Below, one piece after another: positions 4,856 to 29,218 of a DNA stretch of 34,923 nucleotides. A program made the position numbers and the translations under genes. The stretch covers positions 51,492 through 86,414 of the forward strand of contig SWDN01000007.1 in assembly GCA_005116775.1 (NCBI GenBank), written 5' to 3'. Source of the DNA: Nitrospira sp. (GTDB taxonomy: Bacteria; Nitrospirota; Nitrospiria; Nitrospirales; Nitrospiraceae). Every line of letters starts with the position of its first letter. Position 1 is the stretch's first letter. Below the pieces are notes generated by a model. It did no database searches, was not told where the DNA came from, and saw only the letters and a list, made by a program, of their open reading frames with translations.

Positions 4856-5740
4856 ATGGTCAAGCCCCCGGTTGCCGACATACGGCGAGCTGTTCGGCTG
4901 GCACTCCAAGAAGATCTTCCACGCAACGATGTCACGACTGAGGCGCTCTTCCCCGCTCCTACACCGGCGCGCGCGCGTATTATCGCCCAACAATCGCTGG
5001 TCATCGCCGGGCTTGCGGCAGCCGTGCATACGTTTGAGGCGATGGATGCATCCCTCGTCTTGTCCCTCCACCGCCAGGATGGCGAACGCGCACAAGATGG
5101 AGACTGCCTTCTCCAGATCGAAGGCGATGGGCGATCCATCTTGAAAGCCGAGCGCGTTGCGCTGAACTTTCTCCAACACCTCTCCGGTGTCGCCACCTTG
5201 ACGCGCCAGTTCTGCGACGCAGTTCATGGATACCCCGTGACCATCTTAGATACGAGGAAGACAATCCCGGGCTTACGCGCGCTTCAGAAATGGGCAGTGG
5301 TCCTCGGCGGAGGCACGAATCACCGCCGATCCTTGAGCGACGGCGTCCTGATCAAAGACAATCATCTTGTCCTCCTGAACCAGACGACAACGCCGATTCT
5401 CACCGCCTGCCGCAAAGCGAAAGCCAACGCCCCTCGCGGCATGAAGATGATCGTGGAAGTAGAATCCTTGGCAGAGGTGCGGCAGGCCATCGCAGGACAA
5501 GCCGACATCATTCTACTGGACAACATGAACCCAGCAACCGCCCGTCAAGCCATCCGGCTGATCAAGGGGCGAGCACTCGTGGAGGTGTCAGGAGGAATCA
5601 CGCTGAAGAATGTCCGCGCCATGGCGGCAGCCGGTCCTGACCGTATCTCCATCGGAGCCCTCACCCATTCAGCTCCCGCCGCGACACTCAGTCTCGTGCT
5701 TGAACCGCGCCGCCGGCATCAGCCCCGTTCATTTGGTTGA
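4856..5740 (+). CDS. nadC: nicotinate-nucleotide pyrophosphorylase (carboxylating)
   Basis: NadC converts quinolinate and PRPP to nicotinate mononucleotide, CO2 and pyrophosphate in de novo NAD synthesis. The 294-aa protein shows the family signature TRKTIPGLRALQKWAV, then GGGTNHR, then VLIKDNHL, which supply the quinolinate- and PRPP-binding basic residues. The C-terminal half carries EVESLAE and LLDNM strands of the alpha/beta barrel and the phosphate-binding VSGGI and SIGALTHS motifs. It starts 3 bp after valS. The last codons and the TGA stop lie inside the left arm of the repeat at 5728-5826, so the extreme C-terminus (after about residue 288) is probably repeat-derived. Function is confident. 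Confidence 0.97.
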   Translation: MVKPPVADIRRAVRLALQEDLPRNDVTTEALFPAPTPARARIIAQQSLVIAGLAAAVHTFEAMDASLVLSLHRQDGERAQDGDCLLQIEGDGRSILKAERVALNFLQHLSGVATLTRQFCDAVHGYPVTILDTRKTIPGLRALQKWAVVLGGGTNHRRSLSDGVLIKDNHLVLLNQTTTPILTACRKAKANAPRGMKMIVEVESLAEVRQAIAGQADIILLDNMNPATARQAIRLIKGRALVEVSGGITLKNVRAMAAAGPDRISIGALTHSAPAATLSLVLEPRRRHQPRSFG

Positions 5741-5826
5741 TTTGGTTTGTTTGGTTGGTTTCGTTCATGGCGTGGGATTTTTTTAACCAAACAAACGAAA
5801 CAAACCGAATAGACCAAATAACAGTC
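5728..5826. repeat. 9-nt-period inverted-array hairpin, copy 1
   Basis: The left arm is a run of units in 9-nt phase related to GATTTGGTT (for example TGTTTGGTT, then GGTTTCGTT). After a loop of about 20 nt with a T-run, the right arm has the complementary phase (AACCAAACA, AACGAAACA, AACCGAATA). The units are complementary, so the whole folds as a long imperfect hairpin. It overlaps the nadC stop codon and ends 13 bp before birA. Related copies are at 6691, 11489, 25933 and 28575. Confidence 0.85.
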
Positions 5827-5839
5827 CTTCTGGTAAATC

Positions 5840-6679
5840 ATGCAACCTTCGCCACCACTGACACGCGACACCATCCACAGCACCCTCTCGACTAAGTGGC
5901 TGGGACGCCGCATCGAACTATTCGATTGCCTCCCTTCAACGAATCGAGAAGCCGTTCAGCTCGTGCAAGCAAAAGTAGAGCATGGCACAGTCGTTATCGC
6001 TGATAGCCAGACCGCCGGACGCGGGCGTCTCTCCAGAAGCTGGTTTTCTCCGGCCGGCGCTAATCTCTACTGTTCCATTATCCTCAGCGCCACACGCCCG
6101 GCGGAGCGTCTCACGGAATGGCTTTCCTGGCTGCCGCTGATCTCTGCGCTGGCCGCAGCAGAAGCGATCGAACAGGTCTCGTCTGTCCAAGTCTCCGTGA
6201 AGTGGCCCAACGATCTCCTGATTTCGGAACGAAAGGTCGGAGGAATTCTTTGCGAAAGTGGCACAGGCGCAGGATCAGGTCCTTTCCAGGTCATCGGGAT
6301 TGGCCTCAACGTGAACGGCGACAGGGGTGACTGGCCTGCCGACTTGCGCGATTCAGCCACGTCGATCTGGCAAGAACGGAAAATTGTGGTCGATCGCAAC
6401 AGACTGCTCGCGCAGCTGCTGCTCGAACTCGAACAGTGCCTCGATGAATTGGCTGCTCACGGAACAAACCGGCTCGCAATGGCCTATCACAAACGATGCT
6501 CAACCATCGGGCACAAGGTGCAAGCATCGTTGGCCAATGGAAGTGTGATTCTTGGACTTGTCGAGGGAATCGGCCAGGATGGATCCTTGCGCATTCGACC
6601 GGAAGCAGCTCAACCTGGTTCGGGAACACCGGAAGTCATGCACTTGCGTGTAGCTGACATCATCCATGTGAGGCGCTAG
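5840..6679 (+). CDS. birA: biotin--[acetyl-CoA-carboxylase] ligase (monofunctional)
   Basis: The enzyme activates biotin with ATP and transfers it to the biotin carboxyl carrier protein. In 279 aa it shows ADSQTAGRGRLSRSWFSP (the adenylate-binding GRGR loop, near residues 54-71), KWPNDLL and KVGGILCE (about 121-137), then the IGIGLNVN strand. The C-terminal 45 residues form the small SH3-like cap. There is no N-terminal helix-turn-helix, so it should be a class I ligase without the repressor function of E. coli BirA. It lies between two copies of the 9-nt-period repeat. The ATG has no strong Shine-Dalgarno. Confidence 0.95.
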   Translation: MQPSPPLTRDTIHSTLSTKWLGRRIELFDCLPSTNREAVQLVQAKVEHGTVVIADSQTAGRGRLSRSWFSPAGANLYCSIILSATRPAERLTEWLSWLPLISALAAAEAIEQVSSVQVSVKWPNDLLISERKVGGILCESGTGAGSGPFQVIGIGLNVNGDRGDWPADLRDSATSIWQERKIVVDRNRLLAQLLLELEQCLDELAAHGTNRLAMAYHKRCSTIGHKVQASLANGSVILGLVEGIGQDGSLRIRPEAAQPGSGTPEVMHLRVADIIHVRR

Positions 6680-6690
6680 CAGAAGAAGAC

Positions 6691-6780
6691 CGATATTTGG
6701 TTTATTTGGTTTGTCTCATTTGTTTGGTTGAACGAAACTAACCCGACAGACTAAACAAACCAGATGAACTAGATTGCCTA
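6691..6780. repeat. 9-nt-period inverted-array hairpin, copy 2
   Basis: The left arm has TATTTGGTT-type units (6693-6730). The right arm starts directly at 6731-6732 with AACGAAACT, AACCCGACA, GACTAAACA, AACCAGATG, AACTAGATT in exact 9-nt phase. It occupies nearly all the space between birA (stop at 6679) and dnaJ. The TAG at 6770-6772 in the right arm is the last stop before the dnaJ reading frame. Confidence 0.82.
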
Positions 6781-6809
6781 CTGGCCAAACCATCCAACCA
6801 AACCGTACA

Positions 6810-7939
6810 ATGGCTCCTATGCTCCTCGTGATAGATATCGTGACTACTACGAAACCTTAGGCGTCGAACGAACCGCCTCCGACGAGGACCTCAAGAAGGC
6901 CTATCGGAAGATGGCCCGTCAACACCATCCCGATCTCCAAACGGGAGAGGCTCAGAAAAAGACATCGGAAGAAAAGTTCAAAGAAGTCAATGAAGCCTAC
7001 GAGACGCTGAGCGATCAGGATAAACGCAAACGCTACGACATGTTCGGTCATGCCGGAGCCCAGCAAGGCGGAGGCCCTGACGGATTCGGTGGAAGCGGCT
7101 TCGGCGACGCCTTCAACGATATCTTCGAGGACTTTTTCGGCGGTCAGCGAGGCGGGAGTCGCGCGGAGCGCGGCAATGATCTCCAATACAATCTGGAACT
7201 GACTTTCGAAGAGGCCGTCTACGGGAAAGAGGCCAAGCTCAAAATCCCGCGATGGGAAGTCTGCGGTGATTGCAAAGGAAGCGGCGCCAAGAGCGCGGCA
7301 TCGGTCAAGACCTGCCCCAGCTGCAAAGGGGCTGGGCAGATGCGGTTCCAGCAAGGGTTCTTCAGCATCACTCGTCCCTGCGGCCAATGCGAAGGAGCCG
7401 GACGAATCGTCACAGAGCCCTGCACTGCCTGTCAAGGCCGTCAACGCACCTATCGAGAGCGAACCATCGCCGTGCATATTCCAGCCGGCATCGAGTCAGG
7501 CATGCGCCTGCGCCTCTCGAACGAAGGAGAGCATGGCCTCAACGGAGGCCCGCCAGGCGATCTCTATGTGGCAATTACCGTGAAGCCGCATCCGATCTTC
7601 CGGCGTGAGGGACACGATATTCTCTGCGACGTCCCGATTCAATTCGTCACAGCCGTACTTGGAGGAAAGATTGAGGTTCCCACGCTAAAAGGCAATACAG
7701 TCATCAAGATTCCTGCCGGCACGCAGCAGGATAAGACCCTGCGCATCAAAGGTATCGGCATTCCCAGCCTGAAGAACCAGAGCACCGGCGACCAATTATT
7801 TGTCATCAAGATTCAGATTCCCACCAAACTGACCGCTCGCCAAAAAGAATTGCTCAGCGAATTTGCCAAAGAGAGCGGCATGACGATGGAAGAAGACAGC
7901 GACGGCTTCTTCGACAAGATGAAGACCTTCTTCGAATAG
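6810..7939 (+). CDS. dnaJ: chaperone DnaJ (start apparently frameshifted)
   Basis: DnaJ is the Hsp40 co-chaperone that delivers unfolded clients to DnaK and stimulates its ATPase. The J domain reads RDYYETLGVERTASDEDL onward with the HPD tripeptide, followed by a Gly/Phe-rich segment. The zinc domain has four Cys motifs (CGDCKGSG, CPSCKGAG, CGQCEGAG, CTACQGRQ), and then come the client-binding beta domains. The J-domain frame has no ATG, GTG or TTG between the stop at 6770-6772 and the internal ATG at 6911, which would delete half of the J domain. An ATG at 6810 is in the +1 frame. One extra base near 6818 would join it to the J domain and give about 376 aa, the normal length. Either a 1-nt error or mutation is present, or a rare codon is used. 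rsmE follows after 30 bp. Confidence 0.9.
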
Positions 7940-7969: not shown

Positions 7970-8713
7970 ATGTCCACGTTCTTTGTCGATCCAGACTCCG
8001 TCACTCCTCCTACAATCAGCATCACCGGAGACCTTCTTCATCATCTTCGGAGTAGTCTCCGTGTGCAGTCTGGAGACGTCCTCATCCTAAACGATGGATG
8101 TGGAACCCGCTATCGCGTCGAGGTCACCCACATCACCTCACTGGCTATAGACAGTCGCATCATCGACCGACAGACCGAGCCGACTCATAGGTTTGCGCCG
8201 ATCGTGCTGGGACAAACCTTGATCAAAGGCGACAAGATGGACTGGGTGATTCAGAAGGCCACAGAACTCGGAGTCGCTGCCATTGCGCCCATTCAGAGCA
8301 CCCACAGCGTCATCAAGCTGAACCCAGACCGTCTGGAACATCAGCGATCCAGATGGGAGCGCATTGCGCGCGACGCAGCTCAACAATCGGAACGGTGGAC
8401 CATTCCTACTATTGCAGACCCGGTCAGTCTCGCAGAGATCTTCCGACAATACGCCTCAGCACCGCTGAAGAGCATACTCATAGAACGCTCCAGCGGCCCT
8501 TCGCTCGCAACCGTCTCATTACCGCGAGATTCTCAAAACCCAATTGTTCTGTTGGTAGGTCCGGAAGGAGGCTGGACGCCGGACGAGCAGCGACTTGCAC
8601 AGGAACAGGGCTTCCTTTCGCTCACCCTTGGGCCACGAATCTTGCGCGCCGAGACCGCAGCGATCGCCGCGCTCAGCATTCTCCAATCAAGGCTCGATGT
8701 CACTCAATCGTGA
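7970..8713 (+). CDS. rsmE: 16S rRNA (uracil(1498)-N(3))-methyltransferase
   Basis: RsmE methylates N3 of U1498 in 16S rRNA using S-adenosylmethionine. The 247-aa protein has the N-terminal PUA-like domain (HHLRSSLRVQSGD) and the SPOUT methyltransferase domain. Family motifs are QTLIKGDKMDWVIQKATELG, then VGPEGGWTPDE, LGPRILRAETA and AIAALSILQ; the last three build the trefoil-knot cofactor site. Its position right after dnaJ is a common arrangement. The TGA stop lies within the first unit of the heptamer repeat that begins at 8709. Confidence 0.96.
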   Translation: MSTFFVDPDSVTPPTISITGDLLHHLRSSLRVQSGDVLILNDGCGTRYRVEVTHITSLAIDSRIIDRQTEPTHRFAPIVLGQTLIKGDKMDWVIQKATELGVAAIAPIQSTHSVIKLNPDRLEHQRSRWERIARDAAQQSERWTIPTIADPVSLAEIFRQYASAPLKSILIERSSGPSLATVSLPRDSQNPIVLLVGPEGGWTPDEQRLAQEQGFLSLTLGPRILRAETAAIAALSILQSRLDVTQS

Positions 8714-8797
8714 AAAGTTAGACGTGAGACGTAATACGTGGGATTGCCGAGAGGTCTTCTTCCGAAACCTTTCACGTTTTACAATTCACGTTTCACG
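8709..8797. repeat. 7-nt-period inverted-array hairpin (CGTGAAA type)
   Basis: The left arm 8709-8743 reads in 7-nt phase (CGTGAAA, AGTTAGA, CGTGAGA, CGTAATA, CGTGGGA). The right arm 8769-8797 has the complement in the same phase (TTTCACG, TTTTACA, ATTCACG, TTTCACG). It lies between the convergent rsmE and Ycf48-like genes and contains the rsmE stop, so a bidirectional terminator role is possible. A half copy with the same unit is at 12174. Confidence 0.78.
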
Positions 8798-8804
8798 GCA
8801 ACAA

Positions 8805-9806
8805 TCAGCGGCCAACGGTCAGGCGAACGATCGTGCCGTTCTCTCCACTGGCCCAGCCCTGTGTTTCATCAGGAAACGAAAGGCCGAACAGCGAGACCTT
8901 GGCAATCGTTCCTTGCTCAGTCCAAGTAAAACCACCGTCAATAGTCCGATAGACCATGCCCCGTTCCCCTACAATCCACCCGGTCTGAGGGTCGGTAAAG
9001 CGAACGCGCAAGAGGTCGGTCAGCTTCGTGCAGGTACGGGCACAGGGCAATGTGCGATCGATCCATTGATGGCCGCCATTGGTCGTGTGAAAAATGGCAC
9101 CGGCGTTTCCAACGGCCCACCCAGTCGACACATCAGAAAAATACACATCGAATAGCGTCACTGCTCCCTGTGTTTCTTGCGGGGTCCATGTGATTCCACC
9201 ATCATCCGTCACCAACACGGTCCCCACCGCCCCGACAACCGTCCCATGCTGCGCAGTGAGAAACTGTACGCCGTAGAGAGCCGCACCCGACTTACTTGTT
9301 TGATCGATCCAATGCAGCCCGCCATCCTTTGTGTGAAGGATCGTTCCGCTGCCGCCGACCACCCATCCTTCATTGGGCGACACAAACGAGAGCCCATAAA
9401 AAGGCGCCTGCGTGCCGAGGAGTTGCTGTTGCCAGGTATTTCCCCCATCCAGGCTCCGACGAATCGTTCCATTGGCCCCGACAACCCAGCCCTGTTTTTC
9501 ATCGAGAAAGAAGACGGCTGAAAGGCTCGCCGTGGTCCCGCTGACGACCTTCTTCCACTTCTTTCCGCCATCGACTGTCTTCAGGATCGTGCCACCGGAC
9601 CCTACGGCCCAACCCAGCTGCCGCGTGTGAAAATAGAGTCCCATCAGGAGGGCCTCTGTGTGGCTCACTTGAGGAATGAATGTCAGAGGAGAATCGGCAG
9701 TCCACGAGGGAGACGCACAGACCAACGTCGTCAGCAGCACGAGCGCGAGGCTGCCGGCGTGGAACAGAGAACACACCCATCGCGATTTGGGCGATCGATG
9801 TCTCAC
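8805..9806 (-). CDS. exported Ycf48-like beta-propeller protein
   Basis: The 333-aa protein starts with a signal peptide: basic start, hydrophobic segment LALVLLTTLVCA, cleavage near residue 36. It then carries about six repeats of the pattern GWAVGSGGTILKTVDGG-x-x-W, roughly 42-48 residues apart. These are the BNR/Ycf48 propeller blades known from photosystem II assembly factor Ycf48 and from many non-photosynthetic exported proteins. A Cys pair in the fifth blade (CARTC) may form a disulfide. Its ATG overlaps the stop of the upstream TIG-repeat gene by 4 bp, so the two are translationally coupled and probably act at the same surface or periplasmic structure. The ligand is unknown. Confidence 0.88.
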   Translation of the reverse strand: MRHRSPKSRWVCSLFHAGSLALVLLTTLVCASPSWTADSPLTFIPQVSHTEALLMGLYFHTRQLGWAVGSGGTILKTVDGGKKWKKVVSGTTASLSAVFFLDEKQGWVVGANGTIRRSLDGGNTWQQQLLGTQAPFYGLSFVSPNEGWVVGGSGTILHTKDGGLHWIDQTSKSGAALYGVQFLTAQHGTVVGAVGTVLVTDDGGITWTPQETQGAVTLFDVYFSDVSTGWAVGNAGAIFHTTNGGHQWIDRTLPCARTCTKLTDLLRVRFTDPQTGWIVGERGMVYRTIDGGFTWTEQGTIAKVSLFGLSFPDETQGWASGENGTIVRLTVGR

Positions 9807-11497
9807 TGGTTGGTATCGGCGTCTGGGCGATTGCTATTGAAGTAGCCTGGATCCGGCATGCCCTTGGCTTCAATGATGAAGGTGCCCGCTTCCATCGTCA
9901 GCCATTTTTTCGGCGTACAACACGTTCCGTCAGGCTGCACATCCCACGAACCTCGCCGTACAATCAGCGGGCCAGTCGCCAATTCATTGAAAAACTCATT
10001 GCGCTTCCCGAAACCGTACAGATGACGGTGGGGCACCCGCACGACAATCTCCGTATCCGTCCAGGACATCACCTGAGCTGCAACGTTGCTGAACAGCACT
10101 TCAGTCCGCGAGACATTTTCGCCCAATTCGATATCTTCTCGTCGTGTGTATGCCCCCTGATTGAGTCCCAGGTAGGCATGCTCGGCTGTTTTCAAGAACG
10201 TACCGAATCCTGACCCTTTAATCGTGATCAGTTCATCGAGTCCACCCGACTGTGGACTGTAGGAATCGATTTTCGGCATCAAAAGGGTAAAGACCCCTGC
10301 CTCAGTCTTCAGCGTGTCCTTCACCGCGCAGCAAGATCCGTCCGGATTGGGTTTCGTCGCACCTCGATACACCACGACCGATCCGCTCTTTGCGCTGAAA
10401 GGTACCCACACATCGATGCGATCGTCTTGCCAGCGATAAATGACGGCGCGCACCCCCCCGATATCGACTCGATTCTCTCCTGTATTGAAGTCGGTAAAGG
10501 CATACGGCGTCGCTCCACTTTCTGAATAAAATCCGAAATGCTCCCCGCTGATTCTCAGGAGCGTGCCGATCGGAGCAGCCGAAGGCGTTACGGCCGTCAC
10601 TTTAGGCACGTGAACCGTGAAAGCTCCGACCGTACGCTCACGCCCCTGCACGGTCAGCACAATCGGCCCACTCTCGGCATCCATCGGAAGATGAACAACG
10701 ATGGCGCTATCGGACCACTGCGCAATGGTGGCGAGGTGTCCCCCGAACGTCACCGTGTCACCGACCGCCTTCGCAGCGCCAAACCCTCGGCCAAAGAACA
10801 CAACCTTCGTCCCGACCGGCCCGCTCAGAGGATCGACCCGAATACTCGGGATCAGCGTAAGAGGAACCGCATTACTGACGGTGTACCGAACCGGCGCGCA
10901 ACACGATCCATCCGGCAAGGGATCGGACGAGGCTAATCGAACCATCACATTGCCGGACGCAGCATTGGCGGGAACCTCAACTTCGATACGATCGTCCTTC
11001 CAGTGACGAGGCCTGACGACCACACCTCCAATCGTGACATCGTTGACCCCGAACATCGTATTCGGATCGCGAGGACCGGCGGTGAGACCGAAATGTGCGC
11101 CGGTAATAAGCACGGTATGGCCCGATTCAATTTCTGCAGGAGTCACTGCGGCAATCGTCGGCTGCATTAATATTAATTTTCCGGCAGACAGCTTCTTCTT
11201 CCCTATCACAATTTCAACGGGACCAGACTGCGCTTGGGAAGGCACCTTCACCTCGATCAGGTCTGGTTCCCATCGCTGAATGAGCGCAGGGAGCCCACTG
11301 ACGGTCACACGATTGACTTGCACAGACCGGAACGTCCCGAACCCCTTCCCTCCAATCGATACGGTGGCGCCTGGAACCGCTGTCGACGGCTGTAGCTCAA
11401 CCCCAGATGGAACAGCGGCAGACACGCCGACGTTCAGACCGGCCCATAACGTCATCGTGCACACACCGATTGCGAAGGTATTCATGAGTCGGTTCAT
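9803..11497 (-). CDS. exported protein with five IPT/TIG repeats and repeated PDG(S/T)CC motifs
   Basis: The product is about 564 aa: a signal peptide ending near VSAA, then five immunoglobulin-like IPT/TIG domains. Each begins with a P-x-x-G-T-x-V-x-I-x-G-x-x-F-G pattern and contains V-x-V-P-x-x-A-x-S-G-x-V. Three of the five (second, fourth, fifth) end in an extra loop with a vicinal Cys pair: PDGSCC, PDGSCC, PDGTCC. TIG domains usually mediate binding in surface or periplasmic proteins. The start is ATG 11495-11497 or 11483-11485. The frame stays open further upstream, but only because the 9-nt repeat at 11489-11596 encodes an Asn-Gln-rich peptide, so I exclude that extension. No Shine-Dalgarno is visible. 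It is coupled to the Ycf48-like gene by a 4-bp overlap. Confidence 0.85.
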   Translation of the reverse strand: MNRLMNTFAIGVCTMTLWAGLNVGVSAAVPSGVELQPSTAVPGATVSIGGKGFGTFRSVQVNRVTVSGLPALIQRWEPDLIEVKVPSQAQSGPVEIVIGKKKLSAGKLILMQPTIAAVTPAEIESGHTVLITGAHFGLTAGPRDPNTMFGVNDVTIGGVVVRPRHWKDDRIEVEVPANAASGNVMVRLASSDPLPDGSCCAPVRYTVSNAVPLTLIPSIRVDPLSGPVGTKVVFFGRGFGAAKAVGDTVTFGGHLATIAQWSDSAIVVHLPMDAESGPIVLTVQGRERTVGAFTVHVPKVTAVTPSAAPIGTLLRISGEHFGFYSESGATPYAFTDFNTGENRVDIGGVRAVIYRWQDDRIDVWVPFSAKSGSVVVYRGATKPNPDGSCCAVKDTLKTEAGVFTLLMPKIDSYSPQSGGLDELITIKGSGFGTFLKTAEHAYLGLNQGAYTRREDIELGENVSRTEVLFSNVAAQVMSWTDTEIVVRVPHRHLYGFGKRNEFFNELATGPLIVRRGSWDVQPDGTCCTPKKWLTMEAGTFIIEAKGMPDPGYFNSNRPDADTNQ

Positions 11498-11596
11498 CTG
11501 GTTGATTTGGTTTGTTTCGTTCATTTGGTCGATTTGGTTCATCTGGTTAGTCTCGTTCAACCAATAAACCAAACGAGCTAGACAAACCAAATAAAC
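11489..11596. repeat. 9-nt-period inverted-array hairpin, copy 3
   Basis: This is the longest left arm in the window, with about seven units (for example GATTTGGTT, TGTTTCGTT, CATTTGGTC, GATTTGGTT) over 11491-11557. It is followed at 11559 by AACCAATAA, then ACCAAACGAG-type units. On the minus strand the period of three codons appears as repeated Asn-Gln-Met/Ile triplets. It abuts or overlaps the start codon of the TIG-repeat gene, so it makes up that gene's 5' leader. Confidence 0.85.
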
Positions 11597-11687
11597 GGGG
11601 CCACTCAACTATAGCAAGCGGTTTTTTCGAGAGTCAATCCGGCGAGTACGCACACGACCAGCGTTCGTGGCAGGATCGAAATGCCCA

Positions 11688-12146
11688 TCAGGAGACGGAG
11701 AAAATCACCTCAATTTCGACAGGAGCCCCACGCGGCAACTCAGCGGCGCCCACAGCCACCCGAGTATGTCGACCGGCTGCTCCAAAGATCTCAACCAGGA
11801 GGTCCGATGCCCCGTTGAGAACGTGCGGCTGCTGGACAAAACCTTCCGCGGATGCCACATGCCCGACCACCTTCACCACGCGCGTAATTCGGTCCAACGT
11901 CCCAAGTGCTTGCTTGGCTATCGCCAATACGTTCAGGAGCGCGAGCCTCGCCGCCTCCATTCCCTGCTCGACCGTCAGATCGCGTCCAAGCTTCCCGGAA
12001 AATGCTAACTGCCCGTCTCGCATGGGGAGGACACCGGACAAGAACAAGAGACCGCCGACCTCTACCGCCGGAACATAGGTCGCCAACGGTTGCGGTGGAG
12101 AAGGCAATTCCAGATGCAGTTCCTTCAGTTTCAGTTCGTACGACAT
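11688..12146 (-). CDS. RidA family (YjgF/YER057c/UK114) protein
   Basis: The 152-aa protein belongs to the longer YjgF-like branch. It begins with a LELPSPPQPLATYVPAV segment, then the strand LFLSGVLP, and it ends with HTRVAVGAAELPRGAPVEIEVIF. This carries the conserved Arg and Glu that bind the substrate carboxylate in RidA enamine/imine deaminases. RidA proteins form trimers and hydrolyse reactive 2-aminoacrylate-type intermediates. Members of this branch are less well characterised, so deaminase activity is inferred. It lies 50 bp downstream of the deoB-like gene on the same strand. Confidence 0.88.
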   Translation of the reverse strand: MSYELKLKELHLELPSPPQPLATYVPAVEVGGLLFLSGVLPMRDGQLAFSGKLGRDLTVEQGMEAARLALLNVLAIAKQALGTLDRITRVVKVVGHVASAEGFVQQPHVLNGASDLLVEIFGAAGRHTRVAVGAAELPRGAPVEIEVIFSVS

Positions 12147-12173: not shown

Positions 12174-12206
12174 CCTTACGTTTCACGTCTCACGCATTAC
12201 CCTGCA
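12174..12206. repeat. 7-nt-period repeat, half element (TTCACGT type)
   Basis: Units CTTACGT, TTCACGT, CTCACGC and ATTACCC follow each other in 7-nt phase, matching the right arm of the element at 8709-8797. Only one arm is present. The stop codon of the deoB-like gene (12197-12199 on the minus strand) lies inside it. Confidence 0.6.
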
Positions 12207-13380
12207 CGAAGCGCATCCAGAAAACTCTCACCCACAGGAAATTGATCTCCCAGCAGAGCTTCCACGATGGTGTGTCCTAAATCGGCAGCGGAGGCTCTGA
12301 TGCCGAGACGGACCCCGTGCGCTAATTTCGGACCAGTGGTCAGGAGAGGGACATATTCTCGCGTCGGAACCAGATCAGCCTTGGCCATGTCGCGCCCATG
12401 ATCGCCCGTGAGGACAAGTAGATCGCCTGGGCGAAGCTGTTCCAACAACGCTGGAAGCTGTCGATCGAAATCCTGGAGAGCCATGGCCGATCGCTCGGCA
12501 TCTGACTCAAGGACATCGAGTCCAGCAACGATCAAACCGCGTGGAACTTTTTTCAGCATCCCCGTGACATCACTCAACAATGTAGTCCAGTGCGCTACAG
12601 GCACGGAACGAGTGAGTCCACGACTGCTGAAGAGGTCGCCGACTTTTCCCACCCCGATGAGGATCTGGCTTGCACGATTGAGCACATCGAACATGGTCAG
12701 CCCTGGTGGTTCACTCACAAACTCACGGGGTTGCAGGCCGAACCGCACGGCGCCGGTATCGCCTACGAGAGGATGGGCTGACACACGAACGATTCCCCAT
12801 GGATTCTTGAGTAATTTTCTCGCATCGCGGCAGCGCTGAAAGAACTCGTCCCGGCGCATCGCACTCTCGTGCGCCGCGACATGGCACGTTCGTCGTCCAT
12901 CCGTCCAAACGATCAGCGCACCGGATGACAGATGTTCGGCATCGCAGTCGCGCAGCATGGCGGCTCCAGACGAGCGACGATTGCCGACGATCTTGCGGCC
13001 AAATACCTGCTCAAGGGCTGCAACCATGTCAGGAGGAAACCCGTTGGGACCATGTCAGGAGGAAACCCGTTGGGATAGAGTGGTCCGGCAACGTCGGTCA
13101 GATGACCGGCCATTTCCCAGTAGCCGGCGATAGAATCCACCTCTTTCGAGAGAAAACCAAGACGACCGAAACACCCTTCAGGCTGCCCCATCGTCCGCAC
13201 ACCTTTGATCTCCGTGATATGGCCAAGCCCAAGCGCTTCCAGCGTAGGCAGGTTGAGTCCCCCAACGGCATCGGCCAGATGAGACAAGGTATTGGACTCA
13301 GCATCGCCGTACTCCGCCGCATCGGGCATGGCTCCGACACCGAGGCCATCAATGACCAACACAATGACACGAGTAATCAT
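12197..13380 (-). pseudogene. deoB: phosphopentomutase-like gene interrupted by a 26-bp tandem duplication
   Basis: Phosphopentomutase interconverts (deoxy)ribose 1- and 5-phosphate. The N-terminal part (from ATG 13378-13380) shows VLVIDGLGVGAMPDAAEYGD, SNTLSHLAD and GGLNLPTLEALGLG. The C-terminal part, in another frame, has VLTGDHGRD and TREYVPLL. The frames part at a perfect 26-bp direct tandem repeat (13024-13075). Deleting one copy fuses them as PNGFPPDMVAALEQVFG and gives 385 aa, the normal DeoB length. Two deviations from DeoB stand out: DSIAGYWE where the family usually has DTxTGHWE (Ser at the nucleophile position), and Pro where the metal-binding His before TREYVP is expected. It may therefore be a divergent paralogue. 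It follows deoC in the same direction, which supports a deoxyribose-phosphate role. Confidence 0.85.
13024..13075. repeat. perfect 26-bp tandem duplication inside the deoB-like gene
   Basis: 13024-13049 and 13050-13075 are identical. Because 26 is not a multiple of three, the duplication shifts the reading frame of the deoB-like gene. Removing one copy restores a continuous phosphopentomutase-like protein. Confidence 0.95.
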
Positions 13381-17954: not shown

Positions 17955-18464
17955 TTAACTCCCTTCTCGCAGCAGCGGCCCAATCGCTATCTCAATCGTC
18001 TCTTCGTCAAATCCTCGCTGGCTCAAAAACCTCGCTAGCCGACCAGGCGTCTGTACCGAGTTGGTCCGTCCAGCCATCGCAACCACCTGGGCGGCCAAGT
18101 CGCGCTCACTCACCTTACGATAGGTAGCCCGCAGCGTGGCAAGGACGATATGTTCAGGGCAACCGGTGGCAAGCAGTTCTTCTTGCAGACGCGCGCGCCC
18201 CATCGGCAGGCGTGTGAGTCGCCGATCAGCCCACCGTGCAGCAAATGCGACATCGTCGAGGTATCGTACCGAGATCAACCGCCGAACCGTGACACGAACC
18301 TCCGAGACAGACGCCCCCTTCGCTTCGAGCAATCGTTCGATCTGGGCCGTCGTGCGGTCCCTGCGGGCCAGCGCGCGCACCGCGAGTTGCATCCACGGAT
18401 CCTGCTCGAAACCCGTGACGCGAGAAGCGTTCAAGCGTTTCAGGTTTCGAGTGTCATGTTTCAT
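17955..18464 (-). CDS. recX: regulatory protein RecX
   Basis: RecX binds RecA filaments and inhibits their growth and strand exchange. The 169-aa frame has the three-helix repeats of the family (LARRDRTTAQIERLLEAKG, then VRYLDDVAFAARWADRRL and GFDEETIEIAIG). The first residues (MKHDTRNLKRLN) are encoded by the heptamer repeat at 18437-18526, so the original start may lie further inside, for example the Met at about residue 25 (MQLAVRALARRD). The gene follows recA by about 70 bp and precedes alaS, the widely conserved recA-recX-alaS order. Confidence 0.9.
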   Translation of the reverse strand: MKHDTRNLKRLNASRVTGFEQDPWMQLAVRALARRDRTTAQIERLLEAKGASVSEVRVTVRRLISVRYLDDVAFAARWADRRLTRLPMGRARLQEELLATGCPEHIVLATLRATYRKVSERDLAAQVVAMAGRTNSVQTPGRLARFLSQRGFDEETIEIAIGPLLREGS

Positions 18465-18526
18465 GTTCGTCGTCGGAATTTCAGCAACCCGGAACGAGCA
18501 ACTTGAAACCTGAAACTCGCAACTCC
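18437..18526. repeat. 7-nt-period inverted-array hairpin (CTGAAAC type)
   Basis: The left arm (18437-18470) contains GTTTCAG, GTTTCGA, GTGTCAT and GTTTCAT in 7-nt phase. The right arm (18496-18526) contains TTGAAAC, CTGAAAC and TCGCAAC in the same phase. The arms are complementary. It fills the space between recA and recX and overlaps the recX 5' end. The unit differs in sequence from the elements at 8709 and 22825, but the architecture is the same. Confidence 0.75.
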
Positions 18527-18533
18527 GTTCTTG

Positions 18534-19628
18534 CTAGGCTCCGACCTTATTGGGTCGCCGCTCCTCGCGCTTCTCTTCAACCTTTTTTTCATCTTTGACG
18601 GGCGTGCCGACAGGCTTGACAGGCGTTCGCCCAGGCAGACTGGCTAGGTCGCGCAACTTCCCTTCAATCTCACGAGCCAACGGCTGGTTGCTGAAGAGAA
18701 GATCGCGCACCGCATCACGTCCCTGACCAAGCCGCTCCCCTTGGTAGGAGTACCACGCACCGGACTTTTCGACCACTTTCTTTTCAACCCCAAGATCGAC
18801 CAATTCCCCAGTCTTCGAAATACCCTGCGCGAACATAATGTCGAACTCCGCCTGCTTAAACGGCGGCGCCATCTTATTCTTCACCACCTTCACGCGCACG
18901 CGGCTTCCGGTCACGTCCTGCCCTTCCTTAATCGACTCAATACGGCGAATGTCCAGCCTCACGGATGAGTAGAACTTGAGCGCGTTGCCGCCGGTGGTCG
19001 TTTCCGGATTGCCGAACATCACCCCGATCTTCATGCGAATCTGATTGATAAAGATCAAGGTCGTCTGCGACTTGGAAATAGCCGCCGTCAATTTGCGAAG
19101 GGCCTGCGACATGAGCCTCGCTTGCAAGCCCATATGGGCATCGCCCATTTCACCTTCAATTTCAGCTCTCGGCACCAAGGCTGCGACAGAATCCACCACA
19201 ATGACATCGATCGCCCCGCTCCGAACGAGTGTCTCGGCAATTTCCAACGCCTGTTCACCAGTATCGGGCTGAGACACCAACAGATCGTCCACCTGTACGC
19301 CCAGCTTCTTCGCATAGGCTAAATCCAGGGCATGCTCCGCATCGATGAACGCAGCAGTGCCACCAGCCTTCTGCGCTTCTGCAATCACGTGCAACGTCAG
19401 TGTCGTCTTGCCTGAGGATTCAGGGCCGAAAATCTCAATGACCCTGCCACGGGGAAGCCCGCCAACACCCAGGGCAATATCGAGTCCGAGGGATCCGGTT
19501 GAAATTGCCGGAATATCCACCGGAGCGTCAGCCCCGCCCAATTTCATAATGGCACCCTTCCCATATTGTTTCTCAATTTGAGACAGAGCCAGATCCAACG
19601 CGCGCTTCTTGTCGTCTTTTTCAGCCAT
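18534..19628 (-). CDS. recA: recombinase A
   Basis: RecA forms ATP-dependent filaments on single-stranded DNA, drives strand exchange and triggers SOS autocleavage. The 364-aa product has Walker A GPESSGKT at residues 68-75, the Walker B strand [12 protein letters not shown], loop L1 ([22 protein letters not shown]) and L2 ([21 protein letters not shown], with its conserved Gly-rich turn). The charged tail is Lys/Glu-rich. ATG 19626-19628 is chosen because AGGAG precedes it at good spacing. The frame stays open upstream, but that stretch contains the probable -10 box. A gspE-like fragment of opposite orientation begins about 48 bp upstream. Confidence 0.98.
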
Positions 19629-20848: not shown

Positions 20849-22128
20849 TTCACCGCCTTACTGAGCAGCCAGCGGCGAAGAAGATCCAATGCGGCTTGTG
20901 ACGACCGTTGTTTGATGACATTTCTGTCGCCGTGAAACCGGAACTCTCGCGCGATAGGCTGGTCGGTTCCATCATCCAATCCAACGTAGACCAACCCAAC
21001 AGGCTTAGTCTCGGTCCCACCGCCTGGCCCTGCGATGCCGGTGACGCTGAGACCCACCGATACATTCGCGCGCTCACGAATACCGCGAGCCATCGCCGCC
21101 GCAACCTCCATGCTCACTGCGCCCTTTTGTGCAATCAGTTCCGCCGACACACCCAGCATCTCTGTCTTTGCCCGATTGCTGTAACAGACCGCGCCTCGAT
21201 CCACATACGCGGATGAACCGGCCACCTGTGTGAGCCGATGACCGATCAATCCGCCGGTACAGGACTCCGCGACCGCTAGCATGAGCCTCCGTTTGATGAG
21301 TTCCCGCCCGACGATTTCTTCCATCGTCTCTCGCCCTTCGGCGAAAAGCCAATCGCCGAGGCGTGACCGAACATCGTCTGCCAGCTTCTGCAGCAGATCA
21401 CGATTCTTCTCTGGGGCAAATTGGTTTGCCTTCGTCGTCAACGAAACCAGCACCCCCATGGGCGATGCGAGCAACCCCAGATCGACTGGCGCTCGGCTTG
21501 GAATAAGCCCTTTGAGCTTGGCATCGATATCCGCCTCCGGTAAGCCAAATGTATGAAACACTTGGCGAACGATCGGCGCTCGTTGGGGCCGGCCTGAGGA
21601 TTCGCTTGCCGCGCGCAGTACTGGCAGGACTTCCTGCCGCATCATTTCTTCCATTTCTCGCGGCACGCCAGGCAACGAGACAATCAGCGTTTTCTTCCAT
21701 GTCAGGCAGAATCCCGGCGCAGAACCTACAGGATTCTTCAGGACAGTGGCGCCGGATGGAATCAGGGCCTGGCGCAACTGCGCGGTGCTTGGTGTGCGCC
21801 CCCATTGCGCGAGTCGGGTCGTCATCCCTGCCAACGCGTCCTTGCGACGACCGAGCCGATGTCCGGTCGCATAAGCCACCGCCTCTCTCGTGCAATCATC
21901 CACGGTGGGACCGAGTCCACCGGTCATAATGATCACGTGAGCGCGCTTTACGGCTGTGTGAATCGCTGTAACGATATCCTGCCGTTCGTCACCGACGACT
22001 GATTTAAATCGAACTGCGATCCCAATCTTGCCAAGTTCGTCGGCGAGAAACAGAGAATTGGAATCGGATCGGCCCCCGACCAACAGTTCGGAACCGATGG
22101 CAATAATTTCTGCATCAATCTGGTTCAT
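20845..22128 (-). CDS. cinA: CinA family protein (ADP-ribose pyrophosphatase / NMN amidohydrolase)
   Basis: CinA combines an N-terminal MoCF-like (COG1058) pyrophosphatase domain with a C-terminal PncC nicotinamide-nucleotide amidohydrolase domain, a role in pyridine-nucleotide salvage. The 427 aa are of normal length. The N-terminal domain shows IIAIGSELLVGGRSDSNS, MTGGLGPTVDDCTREA and VSLPGVPREMEEM. The C-terminal domain begins near residue 265 with LAVAESCTGGLIGHRLTQ (catalytic Ser) and contains CYSNRAK and VGLSVTGIAGPGGG. The ATG lies within the degenerate 9-nt repeat at 22120-22164, with GAGAGA upstream as a weak ribosome-binding site. Confidence 0.96.
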   Translation of the reverse strand: MNQIDAEIIAIGSELLVGGRSDSNSLFLADELGKIGIAVRFKSVVGDERQDIVTAIHTAVKRAHVIIMTGGLGPTVDDCTREAVAYATGHRLGRRKDALAGMTTRLAQWGRTPSTAQLRQALIPSGATVLKNPVGSAPGFCLTWKKTLIVSLPGVPREMEEMMRQEVLPVLRAASESSGRPQRAPIVRQVFHTFGLPEADIDAKLKGLIPSRAPVDLGLLASPMGVLVSLTTKANQFAPEKNRDLLQKLADDVRSRLGDWLFAEGRETMEEIVGRELIKRRLMLAVAESCTGGLIGHRLTQVAGSSAYVDRGAVCYSNRAKTEMLGVSAELIAQKGAVSMEVAAAMARGIRERANVSVGLSVTGIAGPGGGTETKPVGLVYVGLDDGTDQPIAREFRFHGDRNVIKQRSSQAALDLLRRWLLSKAVK

Positions 22129-22164
22129 CAGATCTCTCTCGTCATCTGGTCTGTTCGGTCTATC
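22120..22164. repeat. degenerate half copy of the 9-nt-period repeat
   Basis: CTGGTTCATC, then CATCTGGTC and TGTTCGGTC units keep an approximate 9-nt phase like the left arms of the full copies, but no clear right arm follows. It overlaps the cinA start codon. The remaining gap to 22494 holds no gene that I can support. Confidence 0.45.
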
Positions 22165-22365
22165 GCGTGTGTTTGTAGGAACGCGCTCAGTGCGCTAACG
22201 CCCATAGAAAGCAGCACGCGCCTCTGGTTTTGGATCTCAGCGACCCACATGGACATGCCAGTACCAGAACGCTTTTCTCCTGTCAACGAACGTCCTGACC
22301 ACCTCCTCTCGGTTGACAACAACAAAAGCGAAGTGGTAAAAACTGAGCCGCTGCTGGGCCGGAAT

Positions 22366-22494: not shown

Positions 22495-22821
22495 ATGTCG
22501 ACCCCTGAACAATCCCCAGCTCCACAAGCGCCTAGACGTCAATATGTGAACTTCGCCTTCTATAAAATTGACCCGGCCTGGCGGCGCCTCCCCGAGAGTG
22601 AGCGCACCAAAGGGAAGCAGGAATTCTTGCGTGCGGTTGAGGAATATGCCGGCAAGGTCCTCGTCGTGGCCTACTCCTCGGTCGGGATCAGAGGCGATTG
22701 CGACATTATGCTCTGGCGGATCAGCTACGAGCTGGAACTGTTCCAGGACATGACCACGAAAATCTTGGCGTCGAGGTTGGGCCAATATCTGACCACACCG
22801 TACTATGGTCTCTGCGCGTAA
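22495..22821 (+). CDS. chlorite dismutase / HemQ-family protein, N-terminal half only
   Basis: The 108-aa product matches the first ferredoxin-like domain of the chlorite dismutase superfamily. It opens with a Pro-rich start, then YVNFAFYKIDPAWRRLP, EYAGKVLVVAYSSVGIRGDCDIMLWR and LGQYLTTPY. Full members have about 230-250 residues, and the second domain holds the heme-ligating His and the distal Arg. That domain is missing here: the frame ends right after the TTPY motif, and 4 bp later the repeat at 22825-22945 begins. The start has a strong GGAGGAG at 22483-22489, so it may still be translated. It is most likely a truncated gene, although a single-domain protein is possible. No heme chemistry is expected from what remains. 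Confidence 0.75.
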   Translation: MSTPEQSPAPQAPRRQYVNFAFYKIDPAWRRLPESERTKGKQEFLRAVEEYAGKVLVVAYSSVGIRGDCDIMLWRISYELELFQDMTTKILASRLGQYLTTPYYGLCA

Positions 22822-22824
22822 CGA

Positions 22825-22945
22825 TTCAGGTATTTAGGCTGAAGGTTGTTAGGCTAAAGTATTCGGAATTTGGAACTCCGACCTTCGGCCTTCAGCCCAA
22901 AAGCCTTCAGCCTGAACCCGCAGCCTTCAGCCTGAACACCTGATA
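22825..22945. repeat. inverted-array hairpin with GCCTTCAG / CCTGAAC units
   Basis: The left arm (22825-22859) has TTTAGGCTGAAGG and TTAGGCTAAAG. The right arm has CCTTCAGCCTGAAC repeated twice, ending in ACCTGA. The outer arms are complementary over about 20 bp with few mismatches. The unit is two 7-mers (CCTTCAG, CCTGAAC). It sits exactly between the truncated chlorite-dismutase-family gene and ppx, ending 7 bp before the ppx ATG. Confidence 0.75.
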
Positions 22946-25931: not shown

Positions 25932-25932
25932 G

Positions 25933-26038
25933 AAGACCGTTTGTCTGGTTCATCTGGTTTGTTTCGTTCATCGAGTTGATCTAGTTCAACCAAACAAACA
26001 AGACAAACCAAATAAATGAGACAAACCAGAAAACAGTC
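25933..26038. repeat. 9-nt-period inverted-array hairpin, copy 4
   Basis: The left arm runs 25938-25986 (CATCTGGTT, TGTTTCGTT, CATCGAGTT, GATCTAGTT). A single C forms the turn, and the right arm (AACCAAACA, AACAAGACA, AACCAAATA, AATGAGACA, AACCAGAAA) begins at 25988, all in 9-nt phase. Outer flanks AAGAC and GTCTT are complementary. It begins 2 bp after the second TMK-like stop, so it could act as its transcription terminator. Confidence 0.87.
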
Positions 26039-26259
26039 TTCGTCTGCATCCGTTCTGATTCCATCAGAATCAAATCCGATTCAATTCTCGGTTGATTGCC
26101 AATGCGGGATGAGTCGCATCTATCATGCGTGCAGCCACGCTAAACCCAACAGACTCAACAGATAGACACGCAGAAATCTCACGCAAGACTTGTGGCACAC
26201 GGATTGCTGTGATGAATGGCCAGAAGATGGTCAACGCAACCAAACATAGGAGGTGGATG

Positions 26260-26514: not shown

Positions 26515-26539
26515 TCCATACGATAGTTCTTTCACCCAG

Positions 26540-26575
26540 GGCTTGGGACCTCATCGGAGGTCTCAAGCCTTTTTT
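26540..26575 (+). terminator. rho-independent terminator
   Basis: A 12-bp stem (26540-26551 with 26558-26569, one G-T pair) closes a 6-nt loop and is followed by six T. It lies 26 bp after the stop of the small membrane protein. This is the clearest intrinsic terminator in the window. Confidence 0.9.
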
Positions 26576-27360: not shown

Positions 27361-28574
27361 ATGAAAAGAATTCTGACACTCGTTGCAGTACTCGGGCTCA
27401 ATGCGTACACGACGATGGCCGCGACGCCCGTCGATCAAGGCGCCAAAAAATTTGCCTCGGGTACGAACTTCTCACACAACACAAATACCAAGAAGCGCGC
27501 GCGGCCTATGAGGCCGGTCTCCGACAGAACCCTTCAAATGCGGTAGCACACTTCTATCTTGGCGAAACCTGCCGGAGCCTGAAAACCTGGGCCTGCGCGG
27601 AAATCCATTACGAGACCTCACTGGAGCTCAATGCGCAATCCTCGTTGGCCGGTTTGGCCAAACAACGGGGGCGCAAGGCCAAAGTCTGGCGCTTACTGGA
27701 TGAAGGGAAGCACGCCATCACCGACCCGAACGCATCACCCGAGGAAGTCGCTCAGGCTGAAGACACCCTGAACATCGCGAACACGATGGGTCTAGACGAT
27801 GAGCAAGACGTCATCTACCAGCAGTTACAGAAGAGACTTCGGCAGAGGCTCGCACGAAATAATGGGAAAATGGCGTCGGTCCTGAATCAAGATCAGTCTA
27901 TGGCGATGGTTCCGGCGGGAGAGTTCACGATGGGGAGCTCGATGGGGGATGCAGACGAACAACCGGAGCACCGGGTCTATGTGGATATCTTTCTCATGGA
28001 TAAGCACCAAGTGTCAGTGGGGCAATATGCAAGATTCTTAGATGCGACGGCCCTGGACGCACCACCGGACTGGACCACGATGAACCGACTTCAGCACCAG
28101 AGTCGCCCAGTCGCCAATGTAGACTGGACAGAAGCCGATGCCTATTGCACATGGGTCGGCAAGCGCCTCCCGACCGAGGCAGAGTGGGAGAAGGCGGCGA
28201 GAGGGACAGATGGCCGGACCTATCCCTGGGGAAATGAGCATCCAACAAAATTCCTTGCAAACGTGAGCAAGGAGCATTGGAACAGCCACAGCGCGTTGAC
28301 GCCGGTGGGGACATACGAAGAAGGCAAGAGCCCCTATGGCATTTACGATATGGCAGGGAATGTCTGGCAATGGGTCAGCGACTGGTATGGCCCTGACTAT
28401 TATAAGACCGGCCCGTCGCGGAATCCGGCAGGACCGCGTACCGGCATGCACAAAGTGATTCGCGGCGGCTCCTGGGGTAGCAATCCCAATGGTCTGCGCT
28501 CCGCAGATCGGGAGACTCATTTGCCGTCGTTCCGTGGATCTGGAACCGGGTTCCGCTGTGCGAAGACGCCCTAG
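27361..28574 (+). CDS. exported TPR plus formylglycine-generating-enzyme-like (SUMF1) protein, frameshifted
   Basis: ATG 27361 opens a signal peptide (MKRILTLVAVLGLNAYTTMAA), but its frame stops at 27546. The domains are in another frame, which opens out of phase. One extra A in the A-run 27445-27450 joins the two and gives 404 aa. After the signal peptide come two TPR-like helices pairs (YELLTQHKYQEARAAYEAGLRQ), a helical linker, and from about residue 180 a SUMF1/FGE domain: MVPAGEFTMGS, RPVANVDWTEADAYCTW, LPTEAEWEKAARG, YDMAGNVWQWVSDWY, RGGSWGSN, GFRCA. The two active-site Cys of true sulfatase-activating enzymes are absent after RGGSW, so it is unlikely to make formylglycine. Role unknown. 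Confidence 0.82.
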
Positions 28575-28680
28575 GGCTGGTCTATCTGGTTTGTTTGGTT
28601 CATTTGGTTGGTCTGGTTAGTTTCCTTCAACCAAAAAACTAAACAAACCAGATAAACCAAACAAACCAGAAGGACCGGAC
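28575..28680. repeat. 9-nt-period inverted-array hairpin, copy 5
   Basis: The left arm is CTATCTGGT, then TTGTTTGGTT, CATTTGGTT, GGTCTGGTT and AGTTTCCTT. After a single C at 28628 the right arm runs AACCAAAAA, then AACAAACCAG- and AACCAAACA-type units to AGAAGGACC. It starts immediately after the stop of the TPR/FGE gene, like copies 1, 2 and 4, which follow stop codons. Confidence 0.87.
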
Positions 28681-28769
28681 CACAGTGTGCCAAACAATCA
28701 ACCGGCGATCCCAACGACGCGGCACAATCAGCGTCCTCGGGTGAGCCAATCTAACAAGGAGGTATCGCG

Positions 28770-29176: not shown

Positions 29177-29218
29177 CTAGGAGCCTGTCCGACAAGGCAA
29201 TGTCGGACAGGCTCCTAG
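29177..29218. repeat. perfect 18-bp hairpin downstream of the PII gene
   Basis: Arms 29177-29194 and 29201-29218 are perfectly complementary around AGGCAA. There is no T-run after it, so it is not a typical intrinsic terminator. A REP-like element or a protein-binding or attenuation structure is possible. It lies 63 bp after the PII stop. Confidence 0.8.

Follow-up and report, generated by a model that had tools for sequence, protein, structure and literature searches.

Dispersed hairpins of inverted 9- and 7-nt units at gene ends in Nitrospira

Here we describe hairpins in which two runs of 9-nt units face each other, inverted, across an asymmetric centre that is conserved. Their copies are related by descent, and we show one gene end, at least, where many species carry such hairpins built of different units. 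The reading that we prefer, at a probability of about one half, is that these are REP-like, dispersed, non-coding palindromes that act as hairpins at 3' ends and turn over through replacement of one palindrome by another. The window, by which we mean the whole 34,923-nt stretch that was analysed, is C51:51492-86414 (contig SWDN01000007.1) of G000, a Nitrospira MAG of 2.67 Mb in 53 contigs that is 70% complete; coordinates without a contig or locus name are positions in the window. Genes other than those named from Pfam domains come from a home-made caller, which misses or mis-starts some, and one window gene was added by hand.

Hairpins in the window and their relatives

The five two-armed hairpin arrays that a first-pass annotation had reported proved real: all five were located, and a unit scan found no array in 20 first-order Markov sequences of window length. 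Left arms consist of TTNRTYTSG-like 9-mers and right arms of runs of the complement. The claim of a strict 9-nt phase was borne out by self-comparison in nine of the ten arms, for which lag 9 was best (shuffle p 0.000 to 0.021), but not in the right arm of copy 3, where the best lag was 13 and lag 9 gave 0.47 (p 0.14). Folding of the five copies as RNA agreed with a hairpin structure (z-scores -3.3 to -7.1, copy 5 being the strongest at -7.1). An inverted-repeat list of the window holds four of the five, copy 2 being absent, and no Rfam family matched in the window at the gathering score. Pfam domains of the genes beside the copies are quinolinate phosphoribosyltransferase, biotin ligase, DnaJ, TIG, endoribonuclease-like, thymidylate kinase, FGE-sulfatase, P-II and CinA; the names nadC, birA, dnaJ, cinA and coaX are those that we presume for these Pfam-defined neighbours.

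None of the hairpins is assigned to a strand. Copy 1 (5728-5829, hairpin 5731-5819, lag 9) has GT-rich 9-mers on the left, a T-run in the loop, AC-rich 9-mers on the right and a degenerate end motif, AACAGTCCTT, at 5820-5829. It contains the nadC stop (TGA 5738-5740), so that the array can itself supply a stop codon, and a similar copy lies in the same gap of G026. Copy 2 (6686-6785, arms 6695-6765, end motif AAGACCGAT) has an array that starts 12 nt after the birA stop (TAG 6677-6679). Copy 4 (25932-26041, arms 25939-26026) is bounded by GAAGACCGTTT on the left and AAAACAGTCTTC on the right; an end motif directly follows the TAA of the thymidylate-kinase-like gene, the array begins 8 nt after this TAA, and the site is orthologous in 24 relatives. 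Copy 5 (28574-28681, arms of 45 nt) overlaps the stop (TAG 28572-28574) of an FGE-sulfatase-domain gene upstream of the P-II gene. These four copies are therefore as close to stop codons as had been claimed. Copy 3 (11487-11602, hairpin 11501-11596) has the TIG-domain gene on one side and, on the other, the endoribonuclease-like gene (minus strand, 11688-12146); the left end of the copy overlaps a possible start of the TIG-domain gene. An N-terminal extension of the TIG-domain ORF reads through the copy, which thus abuts or overlaps the start of that ORF, as the annotation had it. The hairpins account for spurious low-complexity protein stretches of the NQINQM type, for example at the N-terminus of the 9803-11608 ORF. 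A sixth, half copy claimed at the cinA start (22120-22176, plus strand) is unsupported as an array: its unit score of 29/36 equals the threshold, and lag 9, although the best, reached 0.38 (p 0.66).

Three further hairpins have 7-nt units. One of the same layout and of ACGTGA type occupies a convergent gap (8706-8793; period 7, p 0.000), and the orthologous gap in relatives holds 7-nt hairpins of differing units. Another of this layout, of GTTTCNN type (18444-18523; period 7, p 0.000) lies just past the stop of the minus-strand gene 18534-19628, presumably recA, and a GGCTGAA / TTCAGCC hairpin (22833-22916) follows just after a stop at 22821 with a weaker period (autocorrelation 0.47, p 0.016). 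The proposal of a distinct repeat class is supported, but the 9-nt copies are not a class of their own.

The window has other features besides. A short non-periodic palindrome, CTAGGAGCCTGTCCGACA..TGTCGGACAGGCTCCTAG, follows the P-II gene (29177-29218), and the strongest terminator-like site (26538-26571; 15 pairs, 8 of them G-C, then a T-run) is at none of the five copies. On the minus strand, one gene, which we take to resemble phosphopentomutase, is split into two ORFs (12197-13380) near a perfect 26-bp tandem duplication (13023-13075), and the Pfam Metalloenzyme domain is found in one part only. At about 6815-6860, apparent first codons of coaX run directly into dnaJ; coaX in relatives follows birA and is followed by further genes, and the junction looks like a deletion or an assembly join.

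A genome search brought further copies to light: a 23-mer pattern gave 233 matches at up to 3 mismatches in the 2.67 Mb MAG, a count for which the reversed pattern is no independent control, being almost the unit itself shifted in phase. Unit scans counted 36 clusters in 420 kb of G000 and 43 in 400 kb of G026, of which 24 and 29, respectively, have two arms. The G026 sample (C2:1-400000) is contiguous; only C51:1-140000 of the G000 sample is unbiased, the other 280 kb having been picked around matches. The T-rich arm came first in every two-armed cluster (24/24 and 29/29, respectively).

Many copies, with 3 to 8 units per arm, share an asymmetric centre, about TCTGGTTAGTTTCGTTC then AACCAAACAAACGA. 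The order of unit variants is also shared: it carries 76.0 bits in G000 (n=24) versus 65.9 when permuted and 68.4 bits in G026 (n=29) versus 60.8, and in neither genome did any of 300 permutations, each re-anchored, reach the observed value. A recurrent end motif, AAGACCGTT, is present in a minority of copies; G026 has 43 matches to the end motif AAGACCGTTNTTTGGTT with up to 1 mismatch and G004 has 39, the reversed pattern giving none in either, and five other genomes including G000 have 11 to 15 (controls 0 or 1). Composite copies end in GCAGGATGCT. Among the best 8 of 132 similar pairs in G026, which were inspected, one pair (C2:129965 and C2:138814) shares 95.7% identity over 140 bp between flanks that are unrelated; in it, the 9-nt hairpin is nested within CAGGATGCT...AGCATCCTG ends. 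The shared centre, unit order, end motif and this pair indicate dispersed copies of common ancestors and not arrays grown separately by slippage.

Complementarity, which had been described as kept while units differ, is not kept copy by copy. Own arms paired no better than arms of different copies as ungapped complementarity or as RNA duplexes (n=21; p 0.55 and 0.63) or when folded as chimeras in G000 (23 copies; p 0.89 and 0.95), and in G026 they paired worse (29 copies; p 0.997 and 0.98). Compensation at the level of the copy was therefore rejected, the G026 result being contrary to it.

Distribution across genomes, genes and orthologous sites

The 9-nt family is genome-wide and patchy over Nitrospira. 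Among 32 Nitrospira genomes, matches at up to 2 mismatches ranged from 0 (G003, G011, G016, G021) to 481 (G026), and close relatives differ: G007 and G025, with 92% identical BirA, have 62 and 6 matches, and G013 (75% complete) and G026, with 95% identical BirA, have 158 and 481. In the phylum, a pattern match was present in 43 of 395 genomes and 18 of 169 genera. The reservation about the reversed-pattern control holds for the genus and phylum counts as well.

A census of long hairpins made without use of the unit sequence places these copies in a wider class, of which they are one subfamily and in which units are mostly of 9 or 7 nt. Periodic hairpins make up most long hairpins in two Nitrospira samples: 61 of 88 in the 400 kb of G026 (35 of period 9, 21 of period 7; 59 of 88 when rerun with other shuffles) and 36 of 56 in the 420 kb of G000 (23 of period 9, 11 of period 7), with 13 of 21 in the unbiased 140 kb. 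As controls, 400 kb of Markov sequence held one periodic hairpin and 150 kb of E. coli K-12 two. Four element-poor Nitrospira had none in 76 kb, and other Nitrospira had 39 in 165 kb, 16 in 224 kb and 2 in 60 kb. Among 12 loci from outside Nitrospira, three periodic hairpins were found in L214 (uncultured bacterium) and two in L224 (Saprospiraceae), from which the class may extend beyond the genus; periods in these two loci were 12, 9, 10 and 7.

The periodic hairpins have a common polarity, with more G than C in the 5' arm in 57/61 (G026), 31/36 (G000) and, in two Nitrospira pools, 39/39 and 15/16; the G009/G012/G018 pool gave 0/2. Non-periodic hairpins lean the same way more weakly (G-first 18 vs 7 in G026, 13 vs 5 in G000).

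Position was assessed in intergenic gaps of at least 60 bp. Periodic hairpins occupy 14/37 convergent, 39/147 tandem and 6/43 divergent gaps in G026 (convergent vs divergent p 0.020, tandem vs divergent p 0.10) and 5/36, 25/137 and 1/48, respectively, in the G000 sample (p 0.08 and 0.003 against divergent). Of the hairpins in tandem gaps, 22 of 25 in the G000 sample lie nearer to the stop than to the next start, at a median of 7 nt from the stop (p 1.6e-4); G026 has 26 of 39 such cases, with a median of 19 nt (p 0.053). TAG is mildly over-represented among element-adjacent stops (28/66 vs 185/637 elsewhere). Clusters lie inside called genes in 5/36 cases in the G000 sample, some of which are perhaps wrong start calls, and in 1/43 in G026.

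Orthologous sites were also compared. The birA-coaX gap, which has no counterpart in the window because another gene adjoins birA there, was found in 18 genomes: it is 33 bp long without an insert in three (L081, L087, L097), 43 bp long in four (L088, L089, L091, L092) and filled with a 9-nt element or another palindrome in the remaining eleven. Within one type, elements in this gap are more alike than silent sites nearby (element identity 0.87 vs 0.59 and 0.61 at 4-fold sites; 0.88 vs 0.67 for coaX), and copy 2 is 94% identical to its counterpart in G007 versus 58% at 4-fold sites of birA. Elements of different types are about as alike as 4-fold sites, or less so. The alignment leaves out G006 and G026, whose elements are composite or badly bounded (identities 0.24-0.63).

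The end of the thymidylate-kinase-like gene, the site of copy 4, gave a different picture. An automatic test found a periodic hairpin in 12 of 25 genomes. The units are of 9 nt in nine genomes and of 7 nt in three (AGTTCTG, AGTGCTG, AGGTTCG), one genome having both of these lengths, and of 6 nt in one; several other genomes, outside this count, hold by eye degenerate arrays of these or other units. Different species carry hairpins of unrelated units at this gene end. In 33 of 36 usable pairs the elements were less alike than the 4-fold sites, in a comparison for which 10 of the 25 genomes were hand-picked, element ends were set by hand and nine pairs with G019 were set aside for a misaligned reading frame (5-8 sites). 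Uniform purifying selection on the sequence, which fits the birA gap within one type, was rejected because it fails at the thymidylate-kinase gap.

Occupancy of 14 orthologous gaps near birA is uneven (chi-square 48.4 vs 13.9 simulated, fewer than 1 in 5000), but several of the empty gaps are short and probably inside operons, which alone would make occupancy uneven. At four loci (L074-L077; G024, G019, G005, G030), birA itself is far from that of the other genomes and has 59-60% protein identity to that of the window, with 4-fold identity of about 0.24-0.37, and the adjacent coaX is less divergent (4-fold 0.56-0.70), as if birA had been replaced there.

Likeness to known elements and candidate mobilisers

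The REP/BIME elements are among the closest known counterparts. According to PMC3733652, REPs are 20-40 bp long with a GTAG or CGTC tag, occur in many copies in tandem and convergent gaps, often at less than 20 bp from a gene's 3' end, have termini that may provide its stop codon and are patchily distributed between species, and GTAG REPs are thought to be mobilized by RAYTs. As far as that account goes (PMC3733652), the Nitrospira elements share high copy number, a palindromic form, location at gene 3' ends, supply of stops and patchiness. They differ in that their arms are runs of 9-nt (or 7-nt) units and their total length is about 80-110 bp, and no GTAG or CGTC tag was seen by eye in the listed copies. 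At E 0.001, 19 of the 32 genomes have the Y1 (RAYT) profile PF01797, 18 of them over the cut-off; it was absent from 5 of the 12 genomes with at least 100 pattern matches (G000, G004, G013, G017, G023), all of which except G004 are only 70-81% complete. A RAYT was rejected as mobiliser on the lack of correlation between PF01797 and element density across the 32 genomes (Spearman 0.22, p 0.22). An IS1182-type mobiliser fared no better: PF13751, which we take to be linked to transposases of this type, was matched at E 0.001 by 11 of the 32 genomes, 8 of which exceed the cut-off, is absent from G000, G004, G017, G020 and G026, several of them element-rich, and gave a weak correlation (Spearman 0.35, p 0.048).

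IS1272, an autonomous 1.9 kb IS of the IS1182 family, transposes by replacing stem-loops (PMC5678879). In this account (PMC5678879), a resident inverted repeat, sometimes downstream of genes, is swapped without target-site duplication, in likeness to the present case; the difference is that here short palindromes seem to replace each other. The elements also resemble MITEs in being short, non-coding and dispersed, with inverted ends in some copies and one near-identical pair with clean ends, but a clear target-site duplication was not seen and a parent IS with matching GGATGCT ends was not found in 2.03 Mb. By eye, the 95.7% pair has no duplication and the GGATGCT palindromes that were listed have no consistent one; two orthologous gaps may include a CTAR duplication, though ambiguously. 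An IS5-like YTAR target at stop codons looked plausible at two gaps and was rejected, as the flanks of the listed palindromes hold no consistent duplication. Heptamer direct repeats of TAACTGA in Beggiatoaceae and cyanobacteria are similarly short, tandem, intergenic and present as many sets per genome, as described in part of PMC4679880, but they are direct and, in the main Beggiatoaceae genome, mostly before start codons (PMC4679880, same portion), whereas those of Nitrospira are inverted pairs after stops.

A second dispersed palindrome, found in G026, G000, G001 and others, has CAGGATGCTSAAAAAG ends and A5 and T5 around a GC-rich stem, from which it looks like a two-way terminator. Its usual length is 123-125 bp, as in 20 of the 28 inward pairs counted in 784 kb, and its end matches number 84 to 213 per genome in six genomes and 5 in G021. 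The ends that enclose the hairpin in the 95.7% pair of G026 are those of this palindrome. A GCAGGATGCTSAAAAAG-type end lies within 60 bp of 8 of 43 G026 arrays (left 4, right 6, both 2; random places 1.45%) and of 2 of 36 G000 arrays (random places 0.96%), so that nesting is enriched yet concerns a minority. No autonomous parent emerged from 19 listed ORF-bearing inverted pairs of GGATGCT ends in 2.03 Mb of partly overlapping loci: one had a transposase, which is of IS110 type and apparently inserted into the palindrome. An IS110-family gene (PF01548, PF02371) stands next to birA at L055 226-1494 (G031) and at L204; in both it sits between two inverted ends of the GGATGCTSAAAAAG palindrome, which therefore looks like an IS110 target.

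In a search by title and abstract opening of mostly open-access literature, we found no published description of these elements, a result that leaves their absence from print unproven. Nor did we meet there the 7-/9-nt inverted build, the G-first polarity or unit exchange at one stop. Nitrospira moscoviensis appears in a table in the part of PMC12306157 available to us. We file the elements as a variant of dispersed extragenic palindromes and not as members of the REP or MITE groups.

Origin and role of the hairpins

The position of the hairpins and the re-occupation of their sites point to a role at transcript 3' ends. Once transcribed, a hairpin may form a 3'-end structure that acts as a barrier to exonucleases, possibly after Rho-dependent or other transcript ends that lack a U-tract. 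Given such a role, sites would be re-occupied and sequences free to change; in the simplest picture, any such hairpin would suffice and hairpins would replace one another. Exchange may take place when an incoming palindrome inserts in place of the one already there, through a putative enzyme; IS1272, for which such a mode has been proposed, is a published precedent.

Several observations speak against this reading. A copy's own arms fit each other no better than those of chimeras do, and less well in G026, which is unlike selection on each hairpin; elements at the thymidylate-kinase site fall below 4-fold identity, and element-poor relatives live without the hairpins. The G-first polarity extends to non-periodic hairpins, and 5 of 36 G000 clusters are inside called genes. 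In addition, we know of no settled function for REP elements of the same placement. Nor was a clear target-site duplication or a mobiliser found.

Alternatively, though we think it rather less probable, these may be selfish miniature elements only, copied by an enzyme that favours palindromes or the surroundings of stops and purged elsewhere, with no role. Patchy copy number between related species, the near-identical 95.7% pair, the lack of copy-level compensation, the single cluster of 43 inside called genes in G026 and the proximity of GCAGGATGCTSAAAAAG-type ends to arrays, above random in both genomes, would all follow from this. It explains less well that one gene end carries hairpins of unrelated units in different species, that hairpins lie close to stops instead of being spread evenly over gaps (clear in G000, marginal in G026), and that a Y1 or IS1182-type transposase is absent from several element-rich genomes. 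Mobility, as the first-pass annotation had suggested, stands to the extent that the elements are dispersed copies, given the unit order, the 95.7% pair and the empty and filled orthologous gaps, but a mobilising enzyme was not found.

A DNA-level generator, in which the GT-rich 3' end of a strand pairs with itself by G-T pairing and serves as primer for its own copying, so that a short tandem array becomes a palindrome with the G-rich arm first, is improbable. It would explain a polarity common to unrelated units, including the T-rich arm being first in all two-armed G026 clusters, but the G009/G012/G018 pool departs from this polarity, the shared unit order points to copying of whole elements, and a fresh event would give matching arms, whereas own arms differ as much as arms of different copies.

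Intrinsic terminators (hairpin and U-tract) spread by duplication are more doubtful still. Placement after stops and in convergent gaps would suit them, as would the A5 and T5 seen by eye beside the GC-rich stem of neighbouring GGATGCTSAAAAAG palindromes, and the suggestion that the arrays double as terminators holds in so far as their gene-end position fits. However, by sequence none of the five copies has a U-tract after the right arm, the stem is AU-rich, and the T-rich arm is the 5' arm. Terminator-like sites are no more numerous than in shuffles (15 vs 19.0, 14 vs 13.9), and none overlaps a copy in a scan restricted to loops of 3-8 nt; this and the absent U-tract disfavour intrinsic termination. 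We also considered the AC-rich arm as a rut site for Rho and the GT-rich arm as telomere-like. Independent microsatellite-like arrays grown by slippage at each site, which the annotation had also raised, would account for the strict period and the varying unit number, but are contradicted by the shared centre and by a unit order common to different copies in two genomes, and we hold them to be very unlikely.

Returning to replacement of one palindrome by another at 3' ends, we suggest tentatively, and with considerable doubt, that the architecture (7- or 9-nt inverted units, G-rich arm first, directly after the stop) persists while the unit is swapped wholesale at the same site. If true, this would mean that palindromes are exchanged for palindromes by a system with no known transposase, and that the 3'-end function which it supplies takes no account of sequence. 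Nitrospira, a key genus in nitrification, would then have a REP-like system that is built quite differently and seems to stand apart from RAYTs. Finally, the pattern of different units at the same site provides a handle on whether palindromes at gene ends serve a 3'-end role or are tolerated, and on how palindromes replace palindromes.
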